This document shows, piece by piece, positions 38,897 through 43,045 of a stretch of 43,045 bases of DNA (position 1 is its first letter; each line of letters opens with the position of its first letter). Source of the DNA: Hydrogenophaga intermedia. GTDB taxonomy: Bacteria > Pseudomonadota > Gammaproteobacteria > Burkholderiales > Burkholderiaceae_C. The stretch is from the NCBI GenBank assembly GCA_945890705.1, contig CAMDCY010000006.1, positions 1 to 43,045 of the forward strand. The letters are read 5' to 3'. The translations under genes were made by a program, and so were the position numbers. Below the pieces are notes generated by a model, which was given only the letters and a program-made list of their open reading frames with translations, ran no database searches and was not told where the DNA came from.

Positions 38897-39700
38897 TCAG
38901 TAGTTAACTGGCGAGCGCCCTCCGGTGGCTGCATCACTGAGCGCTTTGTTGATGATGCCAGACGTCACAGATGCAAAGAAGCGTGCACCCCAATTGGCAT
39001 ATCTGTCTTCATCATCCTTTGTGAGAGCCAGTACGCCCGGGCATTTGCCTGCAGCTGCAACCGCCCGAATGGCTTGTTCAATTGCAGCCTGAACGGGCGG
39101 CTCGTTCCAGCGGTTTTCATGACCCATCGTGTGCGCGAGGTCGTTGGGTCCGACGAACACAGCATCTACGCCTGGTACAGCCGCAATGGCGCTAGCGTTG
39201 GCAACCGCCTCTGGCGTTTCAATCATCACAATCAGCGCGATGCCCTCGTTGCTGCGCTGTGTGTGCTGTGGCCCACCGAATGCCCCATACCCGGCAGCGC
39301 GGGATGAAAATGCACTGCCGCGCTGACCCGACACACCGGCTACGCCCAATGGGAGTGGGTATTTCACGCGTTGCACCAGTGCGGCGGCGTGCTCGGCGGT
39401 GTTCACCATTGGAATCTGCAGGCCACTCGCACCCAAGTCCAGCGTTCGCGCAATGTCTTGCTCTAGGCAGCGCACCAGTGCAGGCAAACCACTGGCGCGC
39501 GCAGCGCGCAACATATGCTCGGTGGTTTCCAGCCCTGCGCTGCCATGTTCGTTATCGATCACCACGAAATCAAATCCTGCAAATGCGCACATCTCGACCA
39601 AAGCGGGAGAAGGGATGCCGTTGAAAATGCCACGCAGGCGTTGGCCGCTGCGCAACATTCCAGGCAGGCGGTTGTCCAAGGGATGGTGAGTTGGGTTCAT
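38897..39700 (-). CDS. HpcH/HpaI-family aldolase
   Basis: A 267-residue class II aldolase/citrate-lyase-like protein that makes or breaks a C-C bond next to a keto acid such as pyruvate. Seen: FDFVVIDNEHGSAG with His52, Arg78 (LVRCLEQD), the metal ligands Glu161 (IVMIETPEAV) and Asp187 (VFVGPNDLAHTMG). These positions match HpaI (His45, Arg70, Glu149, Asp175), with the usual spacing shifts. An insert with SSRAAGYGAFGG lies where HpaI-type enzymes contact the substrate. The start at 39700 (MNPTHHPL) overlaps the upstream stop (ATGA). It is the last gene of the cluster. The likely job is the final retro-aldol step giving a keto acid plus an aldehyde. Confidence 0.9.
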   Translation of the reverse strand: MNPTHHPLDNRLPGMLRSGQRLRGIFNGIPSPALVEMCAFAGFDFVVIDNEHGSAGLETTEHMLRAARASGLPALVRCLEQDIARTLDLGASGLQIPMVNTAEHAAALVQRVKYPLPLGVAGVSGQRGSAFSSRAAGYGAFGGPQHTQRSNEGIALIVMIETPEAVANASAIAAVPGVDAVFVGPNDLAHTMGHENRWNEPPVQAAIEQAIRAVAAAGKCPGVLALTKDDEDRYANWGARFFASVTSGIINKALSDAATGGRSPVNY

Positions 39701-40872
39701 ACCGCTTTTTTCCACAGTTCCTCGCTGGCCATGCGTGCGCCTTCGGCCATGCTGGCCAGTTTGGCGTAACAAATCGGAGGGTGGATGGCGCCATACCCAG
39801 CAAAGGTCCCAAAACCACAGTCGGATGCCGCCATCACCCGGTCACGGCCGACGATGTTGGCGTAGGTCAATAAGCGCTGGGCCACCAGACGCGGATGTTC
39901 AATGAAGTTGTTGACCGAGTCCAAAACGCCGGGAGCAAGGATCTTGTTGTCAGGGATGCGGTTCTCCTTTGCCGCCTGGGCCCAGACCTCCCACTCGTGC
40001 GCATGGCGCGGGTTCGCGCCTTCAAACAGCGTCGTGGCGGGTTTGGCCTTGAGCACCACATCAATGATCTTGTCCAGGCCGATGTCCCGGTGGTGGGGGC
40101 CTTCGTAGTTGCCCCAGCAGACATGCATGCGGACCCGCTCGGCAGGGATATTGCGCAACGCATGGTTGAGTGCTTCAACCTGCATGTGTGCATTGCGCAT
40201 GAATTCGGGTTCGTCGGCGTCGCGAAACTGGATGTGGCGCCCCATGGCCAGATCGGGCGCATCGATTTGCAAGTCAAGGCCAGCGGCCACAATGGTCTCG
40301 TACTCAGTACTCATCGCTTCGGCCAAGGCCTGCAAGTAATGCTCCTGGGTGGCGTAGTACTTGTTGGGCTGAAAGACGGCAATCACACCGGGTGATGCGC
40401 TGTTCATGAATGCTCGCACCGGCTCCTGCCCCGGCTCGGCTGATTTCTGGCAGGCGGCCTTCAGGTTGGTGATGTCCTTGTGCAGCGCGGACAGGTCCTT
40501 GACCTTGATGGGGCCAGTGCAAATCGGGCGGTGGTATTTGGGGGTGGCGCCCAGCTTGGACAGACGCTCTTTGAACTCTGGGAAATCGTCCAGGTCCAGC
40601 GGCACCGCACGAGGCATTTCGCCGAGCTCGAAACCGGTTAGCCGATGGCGAATGTAGGTGGCGTAAGAGATCTTGCCCATTTCGCCATCACTCACCACGT
40701 CCACCTTAGCCTTCACTTGTTTTGCCACCACATCGTTGACTTCGGCCTGCATGATCTCTTCGAACGTGGCTGGGTCGTAGTTGAGGCCGCTGTCTTGGGC
40801 AAACAACTGTGTCACGACTCGTTCCGGACGAGGCAAACTACCCACATGGGTGGTGAGGATTCGTTGACTCAT
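39697..40872 (-). CDS. MetE-C/coenzyme-M-transferase-like zinc protein
   Basis: A 391-residue protein with the fold of the C-terminal half of cobalamin-independent methionine synthase. The zinc pattern is present: His250-x-Cys252 (RMHVCWGNYEGPHH), Glu284 (TLFEGANPRH) and Cys352 (AASDCGFGT). Typical blocks such as THVGSLPRP at the N-terminus, QIDAPDLAM and GVLDSVNNFIEHPRLV also fit. It is too short to be MetE and lacks the N-terminal half, so it is not simply methionine synthase. The same Zn layout is used by epoxyalkane:coenzyme M transferase and by stand-alone thiol methyltransferases. In a catabolic set it probably transfers a methyl or alkyl group to a thiol. The ATG (40872) lies 39 bases after the cupin gene. 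Confidence 0.85.
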   Translation of the reverse strand: MSQRILTTHVGSLPRPERVVTQLFAQDSGLNYDPATFEEIMQAEVNDVVAKQVKAKVDVVSDGEMGKISYATYIRHRLTGFELGEMPRAVPLDLDDFPEFKERLSKLGATPKYHRPICTGPIKVKDLSALHKDITNLKAACQKSAEPGQEPVRAFMNSASPGVIAVFQPNKYYATQEHYLQALAEAMSTEYETIVAAGLDLQIDAPDLAMGRHIQFRDADEPEFMRNAHMQVEALNHALRNIPAERVRMHVCWGNYEGPHHRDIGLDKIIDVVLKAKPATTLFEGANPRHAHEWEVWAQAAKENRIPDNKILAPGVLDSVNNFIEHPRLVAQRLLTYANIVGRDRVMAASDCGFGTFAGYGAIHPPICYAKLASMAEGARMASEELWKKAV

Positions 40873-40911
40873 GGTGCAGTGCTCCTAATTGACAAGGGTG
40901 AGAAGAAAGGC

Positions 40912-42051
40912 TCAGCGCTGCGAGCGATCGACAAAGTTCTTGGGTGCCACAAAGCCGTTGGCATCAATCGCGCGGTTGGCCTCTGCAGCGGCTTGAACAA
41001 CTTCATCGCTCCAGACAATGCGCTTGCAGTGGTCGCCTGGGGTCATGACCAGCATCACCGCTTCATTGGACGTGTTGTTGCGGTAACTGCGCCAAACGTG
41101 GGCTGGCATGGCATAGCTGTCCCACCCTTCAATGCTGCCTTTGGCCTGAAACAATGCGGGGGCGTCTGTGCCCTCAGCCATGATCTCCACCTCGCCGCGG
41201 TAGACCACCAGCACCTGTTTGTCGACCAGATGGTGGCGCGACACGCCTGCGCCCGGGGGCAAAAGCAACCACTCTATAGAGAAACCATGGGCATTCATTA
41301 CCGGCGCTAAGTGATTGCGATCCTGTGACATTCCCAAGCCAATCACTGGAGCCAACTGAGCGCCACAACTGGGCAAGCAACTGTCGAGCAAAGCCTCGCT
41401 GGACCAGTCCAAATCGGCAAAGCGCACCGCCCGCCTTCCCATGGCCGCAGGTGTCCATTTGCGCAAAGCAGCGATGTCTTGAATGCTCATCGGTTGCAGG
41501 CGCTTGTCGCTGTCGGTCCATTGCTGGCCCAGTTGTTCGTCGATGATGCGGTAGTCCTCGGTCAGGTGAACGCCTTGCTCCCGCGCGGCGTCCAAGGTCC
41601 AAGGCCCCCACAGAATGCCGCCGGTGTCGTCACGGCCCAAGGCCGTGAACATAAAGGCATCTTGCGGACCCAAGCTTTGAAACCCCCGGTAAATCCAGGT
41701 GGGAACGGTAAAGATATCGCCTTCGCCAACCTCGGCTGTGTGCGTGTCCGGATCAAACCCCCAATGCATCTGCCAGCGGCCTTTGGTGCAAATAAACACC
41801 TCGGCGGTGAAGTGCATGTGCGGGGGGTTGATGGTGCCCGCTGGCATGGACACCCCCCCCACCTGAAAACCATGCTTTTCGCGCAAGCTCACAGGCTGGT
41901 TAGGGTTTTGCGACACCCCAGGACCTATCAAGGCAAAGTTCTTCTTCGGCGCACAACCCGGAATTCTGTAGTCTATGAAGGCATCGGTGCTGTAGCGCAG
42001 GCCGTCAAAGGGAATGAATCGCTGGAGCAGTTCTTCTTGAGTCATCATCAT
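40912..42051 (-). CDS. Two-domain cupin (gentisate-dioxygenase-like)
   Basis: A 379-residue bicupin. The first cupin motif is exact: G-x5-His-x-His-x3-Glu-x6-Gly (TINPPHMHFTAEVFICTKG). In its second motif (GDIFTVPTWIYRGF) the usual metal-binding His is Arg. The second domain is degenerate (SRHHLVDKQ with Gln for Glu; PAHVWRSYRNN). Gentisate and related ring-cleaving dioxygenases have this build, with iron in the N-terminal domain. The His-to-Arg change is shared, as I remember, by some uncharacterised relatives, so activity is open: dioxygenase, lyase or isomerase. Three Met codons (42051, 42048, 42045) compete as starts. The 5' end overlaps the hydrolase gene by 47 bases. Confidence 0.8.
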   Translation of the reverse strand: MMMTQEELLQRFIPFDGLRYSTDAFIDYRIPGCAPKKNFALIGPGVSQNPNQPVSLREKHGFQVGGVSMPAGTINPPHMHFTAEVFICTKGRWQMHWGFDPDTHTAEVGEGDIFTVPTWIYRGFQSLGPQDAFMFTALGRDDTGGILWGPWTLDAAREQGVHLTEDYRIIDEQLGQQWTDSDKRLQPMSIQDIAALRKWTPAAMGRRAVRFADLDWSSEALLDSCLPSCGAQLAPVIGLGMSQDRNHLAPVMNAHGFSIEWLLLPPGAGVSRHHLVDKQVLVVYRGEVEIMAEGTDAPALFQAKGSIEGWDSYAMPAHVWRSYRNNTSNEAVMLVMTPGDHCKRIVWSDEVVQAAAEANRAIDANGFVAPKNFVDRSQR

Positions 42052-42826
42052 TAAAGCTCTTGGTTTGTAGAGAAATCCATTGCCGCAGGGCATCGCTCAA
42101 ACGTGGACCCGCTTCAAGTGGGACAAAATGCCCTACTCGAGGCAACTCCACCCATTGCGCATTCGGTTGTGTCATGACCATTGACCGCTGCATCGCAGGC
42201 GTACACAAGCGGTCCTTTGCACCGCTGACAATTAAAAGTGGACCGGGAAAGCGGGCCAAGTCGGCATGACCGTCGGGCCTTGAGGCTGCCCAATTGAACT
42301 CGGCGTGTGCAACTTTGCTGTCTGTTAACAGCGCCATGTTGTGCACCATTCTGGCGTGACGCCTGCGCTGCATCTCATGGTGAAAATATTCGGGCTTGAC
42401 ACGCTGAGCCACAGCCCCTGGGCCCAACACTCTCCACAACCTCCAAAGTTGTGAGGCCTTACGTTGGATAGTCACACTCGCGCCCAAAGCATTACTGGCC
42501 ACCATGGCCAAACGCTCTATGCGCTCGGGTGCTCGGCGCAGCAACTCCAACGCCCACAAACCGCCCAATGAAAACCCAACCAAACAAAAGCGTTGCGGAA
42601 GTTGGGCCAACAAAGTCGCTGCCCAGTCAACGTTACGGCCCAAGTCACGGTATCCGACGATTTTCACATTGGCTATGCCACGAAATGCATGCTTCTGACG
42701 GTGAAAAATTCGCTCATCGCATAACGTACCTGGAATCATGACCACGCAAGGCAATTCACTGGGCCCGCCATCTGAGCGCTTTTTGCCCTCGGCATCGGGC
42801 TTGAGTGTTGATTTCTTTTTAAACAT
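42005..42826 (-). CDS. Alpha/beta hydrolase
   Basis: A 273-residue serine hydrolase with the triad Ser86 (CLVGFSLGGLWAL), Asp205 (VSGAKDRLC) and His233 (RVGHFVPLEAG), and the oxyanion stretch MIPGTLCDERIF at 30-41. It resembles carboxylesterases and C-C hydrolases of catabolic operons. The N-terminal 25 residues (Lys-rich, MFKKKSTLKPDAEGKK) are not part of the fold. The frame is open to 42892, but the ATG at 42826, overlapping the upstream stop region by 8 bases, is preferred. By eye the base composition is less GC-rich than the core genes. The substrate is unknown; an ester or ring-cleavage product is likely. Confidence 0.85.
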   Translation of the reverse strand: MFKKKSTLKPDAEGKKRSDGGPSELPCVVMIPGTLCDERIFHRQKHAFRGIANVKIVGYRDLGRNVDWAATLLAQLPQRFCLVGFSLGGLWALELLRRAPERIERLAMVASNALGASVTIQRKASQLWRLWRVLGPGAVAQRVKPEYFHHEMQRRRHARMVHNMALLTDSKVAHAEFNWAASRPDGHADLARFPGPLLIVSGAKDRLCTPAMQRSMVMTQPNAQWVELPRVGHFVPLEAGPRLSDALRQWISLQTKSFNDDDSRRTAPAIHSL

Positions 42827-43045
42827 ACCGCCGCGTCTTGTTGAACTCACGCATACGTGCCAGCACATCGACACCAATCTGCCGGTAAACATGTAACAGG
42901 TCCACCAAGACCCAGTTCTCGCGGATCAAGCCATTTTCACATCGCCAAAAATCCAAGCTGCGCATGGTAATTTTCTGCCCTGAGGGCGCTATGCCCATCC
43001 AACCGTCGCCGCTGATGGTGGCCGTCATGCCGGGCCAGGCGGTGA
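42819..43045 (-). CDS. SnoaL-like NTF2-fold protein (5' end missing)
   Basis: The open frame runs from the window edge (43045) to a stop at 42819 and holds about the last 75 residues. The segment WPGMTATISGDGWMGIAPSGQKITMRSLDFWRCENGLIRENWVLVDLLHVYRQIGVDVL is typical of SnoaL-like polyketide-cyclase or ester-cyclase relatives, which act on or bind small aromatic or polyketide-like ligands. The true start lies beyond the window. It ends within the hydrolase start (8-base overlap), so the catabolic cluster continues upstream, outside the window. Confidence 0.82.
   Translation of the reverse strand, partial: TAWPGMTATISGDGWMGIAPSGQKITMRSLDFWRCENGLIRENWVLVDLLHVYRQIGVDVLARMREFNKTRRYV

Follow-up and report, generated by a model that had tools for sequence, protein, structure and literature searches.

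A conserved bacterial gene set joining a core-MetE-like zinc methyltransferase, a bicupin and a pyruvate-type aldolase, with a possible role in catabolism of a methylated polyhydroxylated compound

Methionine synthases reduced to the catalytic half of MetE are represented by the core enzymes MesA to MesD, which, according to PMC7857596, are folate-free and use other methyl donors. We describe here a related MetE-like protein encoded near the end of a 43,045-nucleotide stretch of Hydrogenophaga intermedia (contig CAMDCY010000006.1, positions 1 to 43,045; hereafter the window). It shares with MesA-MesD the folate-barrel-free MetE catalytic domain and the zinc and homocysteine residues. It differs from them by scores under the family cut-offs, by lying in a catabolic gene run and by being carried in genomes that bear MetH.

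The neighbouring genes recall other described pathways. Non-phosphorylative sugar-acid routes of the L-rhamnose/L-fucose type end in an HpcH/HpaI aldolase; they share with the present gene set a short-chain dehydrogenase/reductase (SDR), a hydrolase and a pyruvate-releasing aldolase, whereas a bicupin, SnoaL proteins, HisD and the MetE-like protein are found here where a sugar-acid dehydratase would be expected. Inositol catabolism, whose enzymes include IolG and IolB, treats a cyclitol by a similar logic (oxidation, opening, a cupin step and an aldolase) but employs other enzyme families; Iol homologues were not searched for. Tetronate catabolism through OtnI, OtnK and OtnC is compared below. 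The type 1 mlp gene clusters were set aside: according to PMC10418091 they are built on MtaA-like coenzyme M (CoM) methyltransferases and linked to anoxic environments.

The five genes that close the window are the tail of a conserved catabolic unit. We hold it somewhat better than an even bet that this unit is a LacI-regulated operon which imports, demethylates (onto homocysteine), opens and cleaves a methylated polyhydroxylated compound; we infer every reaction and the substrate class from sequence and gene context.

The five-gene tail and its conservation

The genes, in transcriptional order, are:

42819-43043, minus strand: partial SnoaL-like gene, C-terminal 74 residues of a two-domain protein, 5' end beyond the contig
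42005 to about 42826, minus strand: alpha/beta hydrolase, PcaD-like; the ATG-started frame reaches 42892, the conserved region fits ATG 42826
40912-42051, minus strand: bicupin, 379 residues from ATG 42051, alternatively 393 residues from ATG 42093
39697-40872, minus strand: MetE-like folate-barrel-free zinc methyltransferase, 391 residues, PF01717
38897-39700, minus strand: HpcH/HpaI-type class II aldolase, 267 residues from ATG 39700, PF03328

All five match Pfam families above the curated cut-offs (bits, cut-off in brackets): HpcH_HpaI 109.1 (25), Meth_synt_2 35.7 (21), Cupin_2 39.5 (27.2), Abhydrolase_6 57.3 (26.3) and SnoaL PF07366 43.4 (28.4). The aldolase ATG at 39700 and the MetE-like stop share 4 nucleotides, 39 nucleotides separate the bicupin stop from the MetE-like start, the bicupin and hydrolase genes overlap, and a start at 42826 would give the hydrolase an overlap of 8 nucleotides with the end of the SnoaL gene. 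A longer TTG start of the aldolase at 39772 is also open and is in our view less likely than ATG 39700. A first, sequence-only reading of this DNA had described five genes on one strand that overlap or nearly touch and run off the window, in a block poorer in guanine and cytosine (GC). The coordinates and Pfam matches bear this out, and GC is 57.7% in the block against 62.7% for positions 1-38780.

The conservation of the set was assessed by scanning contigs for the MetE-like gene with an 11-sequence alignment as query. The best 80 of 589 confirmed loci were kept, so that the counts lean to close relatives, and 24 loci from plasmids and whole genomes were added, giving 104 MetE-like loci whose neighbours were labelled by BLAST against a reference set (E<=1e-8). 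At least 8 kb flank the MetE-like gene on both sides in 59 of them, the well-flanked set, and 36 of these 59 hold a two-domain-sized bicupin. These 36 loci also hold HisD (34), SDR (33), LacI (34), a SnoaL protein (35), an HpcH or RraA aldolase (29) and the hydrolase (24). The corresponding figures for the 14 well-flanked loci that lack such a cupin are 1 for HisD, 3 for LacI, 3 for SnoaL and 0 for the aldolase.

In a quick tree of 104 MetE-like rows (L189, whose MetE-like frame is broken, is not in it), the window falls in a 12-row clade with support 99, and the bicupin is present in all 12. When the 23 short-flank loci with no bicupin in view are left out, the cupin label changes 5 times over 81 labelled rows, as against a mean of 13.1 and 0 of 500 shuffles as low, in a labelling that counted short cupins as bicupins, which gave 45 bicupin loci among the 59 with good flanks and took in 11 tree rows with a short cupin. 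All eleven clade relatives have the bicupin immediately ahead of the MetE-like gene, and ten have the aldolase immediately after it; the contig of the eleventh (L181) ends at that point. Across the phylum few genomes have such a bicupin, 24 of the 398 sampled at E<=1e-30 when that of the window is counted. Chance clustering was set aside on the neighbour counts in the 59 loci and the tree. Co-occurrence, which had been named beforehand as the refuting test for a conserved unit, thus came out in its favour.

The contig stops exactly at 43045, and the operon is therefore cut there. Its missing half is visible in relatives. Over 71 residues the SnoaL fragment shares 90% identity with the last part of a 349-residue two-domain SnoaL protein (L086:6973-8019), which occupies the corresponding gene position in a Comamonadaceae metagenome-assembled genome (MAG). 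In L086, L087, L182, L183 and L184, the upstream half comprises HisD, SDR, LacI, a SnoaL two-domain protein, an ABC ATPase, a solute-binding protein and two permeases; the L086 stretch starts within the SDR gene, and HisD runs off the fetched stretch in L182-L184. Between the transporter and the bicupin, L086 has a second SnoaL gene and the hydrolase, L182 and L184 have just the hydrolase, and L087 and L183 have neither; bicupin, MetE-like protein and aldolase end the run in all five. HisD scores 441 bits (cut-off 243.8) and the UgpC-like ATPase 440 (432); the other transporter families are SBP_bac_1 and BPD_transp_1, and the transporter is CUT1-like. The full form, as assembled from several relatives, would be HisD, SDR, LacI, SnoaL, sugar-type ABC transporter, SnoaL, hydrolase, bicupin, MetE-like protein and HpcH aldolase. 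The window thus probably holds the 3' part of a longer catabolic operon, probably LacI-regulated. The lack of a local regulator, remarked on earlier, may only reflect the contig end, since the close relatives have an upstream LacI.

The operon is patchily distributed and hence accessory. No strong MetE-like match was found in 59 same-genus genomes, where two weak partial ones appeared (E 6e-4 and 7e-4), and 15 of 299 family genomes, the window's own included, carry the protein at E<=1e-30. Outside the family, cupin-bearing MetE-like loci occur in Rhodobacterales such as Planktomarina and Ruegeria, in Halieaceae, Acidimicrobiales, SUP05 and SAR324, and in Chloroflexi, of which one MAG has the two-domain bicupin; Comamonadaceae also carry the operon. 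The lower GC and the patchy occurrence agree with the proposal that the block is acquired DNA, but an origin outside the family is not shown: of the 11 other rows in the window's clade, 10 are same-family genomes or Comamonadaceae MAGs and 1 is a Burkholderiales MAG.

A few loci deserve separate mention. A short one-domain cupin (frame of 219-260 residues) lies directly before the MetE-like gene in the Chloroflexi loci L092, L094-L099 and L102 (also L089, L090 and L093), with HisD behind it in most, as a reduced version of the set. A gene for an S-adenosylmethionine-dependent methyltransferase stands between bicupin and MetE-like gene in the roseobacter loci L059, L133 and L159. In the tree, the Acidobacteria row L108 has as its partner the MetE-like gene of L105 (CALQCC020000055.1), a MAG recorded under the name Bordetella parapertussis, and that name may be wrong. 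On a Rhodococcus plasmid (L062:7989-12351), a distant MetE-like gene lies by 2-oxoglutarate/iron oxygenase, phytanoyl-CoA-dioxygenase-family and HD-domain genes, a different combination.

The MetE-like protein and its methyl donor

The MetE-like protein aligns with the catalytic half of MetE and lacks the folate-side N-terminal barrel. In Thermotoga maritima MetE, the zinc ligands are His618, Cys620, Glu642 and Cys704 and the homocysteine contacts include Ser411, Glu462 and Asp577, according to PMC539065. Alignment with solved MetE-type chains, using a chain-versus-paper numbering offset of 32 read from the alignment, maps the former to H250, C252, E284 and C352 and the latter to S12, E64 and D204. 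An alignment of 51 sequences, that of the window among them, shows no variation at six of these positions and conservation of 90% or more at S12. In place of Asp467-Met468-Val, which in MetE lies between the sites for homocysteine and folate, the protein has Ser69-Tyr70-Ala71. An AlphaFold2 model (mean predicted local distance difference test score, pLDDT, 91.4) has MetE structures as its closest folds, ahead of UroD and Methanosarcina mazei methyltransferase rows; among them is 3rpd, which PMC7857596 treats as a MesD.

A role as biosynthetic methionine synthase was set aside. The protein, at 391 residues, scores 23.9 bits with MetE TIGR01371 (about 754 positions, two barrels; cut-off 929.95), and although all 51 aligned sequences match methionine synthase models, the window's stays far under the listed NCBIfam cut-offs (94.1 against 406 at best). 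MetH matches were found in 11/11 genomes checked, the window's own included, and above cut-off in 10, so that the protein is not needed for biosynthesis. From the conserved residues, the methyl acceptor is likely homocysteine. The donor is probably not methyltetrahydrofolate and is, we infer, probably the pathway substrate.

The proposed zinc methyl/alkyl transferase thus keeps its ligands in all 51 sequences. The sequence-only reading had left open demethylation or alkyl transfer to a thiol, the latter meaning that the protein would act like epoxyalkane:CoM transferase and use a small thiol to open an epoxide or an activated carbon. Both proteins are placed in the UroD superfamily in PMC10418091. 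Against such coupling, the three positions holding the homocysteine amino and carboxyl groups are conserved, in a comparison with MetE-type chains, and methyl transfer to homocysteine is favoured on that account. The relatives moreover span Proteobacteria, Chloroflexi, Acidobacteria and Actinobacteria, plus halophilic archaea at 38-42% identity, lineages which to our knowledge do not share CoM or glutathione. We regard coupling to another thiol as improbable.

Another alternative keeps homocysteine as acceptor and moves demethylation to another enzyme, the MetE-like protein forming methionine from a methyl group passed on by a corrinoid protein or a MesX-like partner. Corrinoid proteins probably serve the known core synthases, or else MesX and oxygen are required (PMC7857596), and contig C3 of the window's genome bears a separate corrinoid set. 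No corrinoid protein was seen among the ten recurring unlabelled neighbour clusters that were annotated, and MesX (PF08908) matched 0 of 11 carrier genomes, in a search where no control genome matched either. Methyl capture from such a carrier appears unlikely, though a little less so than the thiol coupling. The C3 genes (G000:C3:38000-47729, L195) encode B12-binding, DUF1638, MTHFR-like and pterin-binding proteins and an AraC/GlxA-type regulator; a match to the N-terminal, homocysteine methyltransferase part of MetH lies nearby at 46438-47247. The ensemble looks like a separate corrinoid methyl-transfer set, and similar MetH-module matches occur in genomes G664 and G736.

The bicupin, its partners and clusters without the MetE-like gene

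Both barrels of the bicupin are modelled confidently (mean pLDDT 94.9). A single metal motif, in the first barrel, reads H80-x-H82-x3-E86 (numbering of frame window:40915-42057), with Arg124 at the position of the fourth His of the usual cupin metal motif; all are invariant in 37 sequences. The structure matches seed storage proteins as well as it does oxalate decarboxylases, quercetinase and salicylate dioxygenase (Z about 21-23), so that the fold does not choose the reaction. A sequence-level match to a solved enzyme was sought and rejected, since cupin matches were weak. The protein may be a metal-dependent dioxygenase or an isomerase. The acireductone dioxygenase type, which carries H-x-H-x3-E and a fourth His ligand, does not fit: Arg124 holds the fourth position, and PF03079 matches 2 of 37 members (best E 6.9e-4).

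The aldolase foreseen by the sequence-only reading for retro-aldol cleavage is of the pyruvate type and looks intact: it stands well above its Pfam cut-off, and its catalytic His, Arg, Glu and Asp positions align with 1dxe (GarL) and 2v5j (HpaI). It is under every listed NCBIfam equivalog cut-off (HpaI TIGR02311, 168.8 against 368.8 bits). RraA replaces HpcH in roseobacters; the sole one tested, L059:9808-10500, passes the general RraA-like PF03737 (61.6 against 24.5 bits). In the hydrolase, the G-x-S-x-G, Asp and His motifs are invariant in 5 aligned sequences.

These enzymes could also fit a methoxylated-aromatic pathway, in which the MetE-like protein would O-demethylate an acid of the syringate or methylgallate type, the bicupin open the ring, and hydrolase and aldolase finish as in the gallate/4,5-protocatechuate routes. 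Bicupins include salicylate 1,2-dioxygenase (2phd, Z 21.1); proteins of Amidohydro_2, the Pfam family of LigJ, occur in 15/104 loci and RraA-type aldolases in 18/104; and in Novosphingobium a MetE-like gene, a more distant relative, has ligAB and a gene of the aminomethyltransferase family nearby. The scores run the other way. For gentisate-type ring cleavage, the sole NCBIfam model listed, 5-aminosalicylate 1,2-dioxygenase, gives the bicupin 14.1 against 650 bits, and the tested RraA reaches 26.9 against 304.5 bits for LigK (TIGR02798). LacI, a CUT1-like transporter, SDR and HisD are, moreover, atypical of aromatic-acid catabolism. The aromatic route is in our judgement as doubtful as the thiol coupling, and the idea of an aromatic-type substrate has been changed for that of a polyol or cyclitol, to which these four elements in the relatives point.

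Clusters of bicupin, hydrolase and aldolase also exist without a MetE-like gene, in Klebsiella, Pantoea, Vibrio, Ensifer and others, which makes demethylation an add-on. Bicupin, hydrolase and HpcH are accompanied by HisD, SDR and MFS in Klebsiella and Pantoea, by OtnK, OtnC and OtnI in Thioclava, Salinivibrio and Vibrio, and in Ensifer by OtnK and OtnC. Wide stretches were fetched for 17 bicupin-centred loci: Otn genes are present in 6, HisD in 9 and neither in 2, and in none do the two occur together (Fisher p 0.0023, a value that ignores kinship and comes from loci chosen among the best hits). Tetronate catabolism meets the present system in six clusters that pair OtnK and OtnC with bicupin, HpcH and hydrolase, whereas the nine HisD-type clusters and the window's genes have no Otn gene. 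OtnK occurs in 1/104 MetE-like loci (L064), without a bicupin. On one reading, HisD oxidises a hydroxymethyl group that otherwise leaves within 3-oxo-tetronate.

Proposed pathway and substrate

In the pathway that we favour, the sugar-type ABC transporter would bring in a polyhydroxylated compound that carries a methyl group and resembles a cyclitol or a sugar. With homocysteine on its zinc, the MetE-like protein would take the substrate methyl to give methionine; HisD would oxidise a primary alcohol, probably to the carboxylate, and SDR a secondary one. The N-terminal cupin domain (as dioxygenase or isomerase), the hydrolase and the SnoaL proteins would then open the skeleton to a 4-hydroxy-2-oxo acid, which the aldolase would split, with pyruvate as one of two small acid products. 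The LacI regulator, the CUT1-like importer, two alcohol dehydrogenases, the methyl acceptor enzyme and the pyruvate-type aldolase suggest that the substrate is a methylated polyol or cyclitol.

Several observations weigh against this pathway. No single locus among those compared shows the whole gene order, and a search of the window's assembly (82.7% complete) gave no matching regulator, solute-binding protein, HisD or transporter gene, the nearest being a 33% HisD relative and a 30% LacI relative. Homocysteine as acceptor is proposed from conserved residues only. The cupin-less loci make up 14 of the 59 well-flanked ones (e.g. Acidobacteria, Pseudonocardia), and 9 more, all Chloroflexi, carry just the short one-domain cupin, mostly with HisD and with the rest of the set missing; the methyl donor may accordingly vary between loci. 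Bicupin and MetE-like gene are same-strand neighbours in 21 of the 36 bicupin loci. SnoaL proteins occur with no bicupin in view in L136, L187 and L188, and L187 also has HisD, SDR and LacI. To these are added the bicupin clusters without the MetE-like gene and the limits given above for the locus choice, the tree label and the Fisher value.

A narrower and unlikely version takes the substrate to be 4-deoxygadusol, the structural core of sunscreens of the mycosporine and mycosporine-like amino acid type. By transferring its enol-ether methyl to homocysteine, the MetE-like protein would produce a reductone; HisD would oxidise the C7 hydroxymethyl to a carboxylate; bicupin and oxygen would cleave the reductone double bond to 4-carboxy-4-hydroxy-2-oxoadipate; and an HpcH or RraA aldolase would release pyruvate and oxaloacetate. 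In the Otn clusters without HisD, the hydroxymethyl would stay unoxidised and a gadusol-type (6-hydroxy) ring would yield pyruvate and 3-oxo-tetronate. With the structures that we assume for 4-deoxygadusol and the related compounds, the steps balance atom for atom, though balance alone does not show a pathway, and the fit is suggestive only. The scheme gives SDR, hydrolase and SnoaL proteins no step, the tested RraA fails the LigK score, and the bicupin lacks the fourth ligand of acireductone dioxygenase.

In the open-licence PMC literature, we found no operon description for the gene combination, for mycosporine catabolism or for a tetronate-kinase/cupin pairing, which is not proof of absence. 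The meeting of known families in a combination that we could not match, in which a relative of core MetE would serve catabolism, is real and conserved. If the proposed pathway is true, homocysteine-dependent, folate-free demethylation would send substrate methyls straight into methionine within a carbon-degrading operon, and many proteins annotated 'cobalamin-independent methionine synthase II family' would get a different role. If the sunscreen version is true, the operon would provide a bacterial breakdown route for a class of algal, cyanobacterial and fungal compounds.

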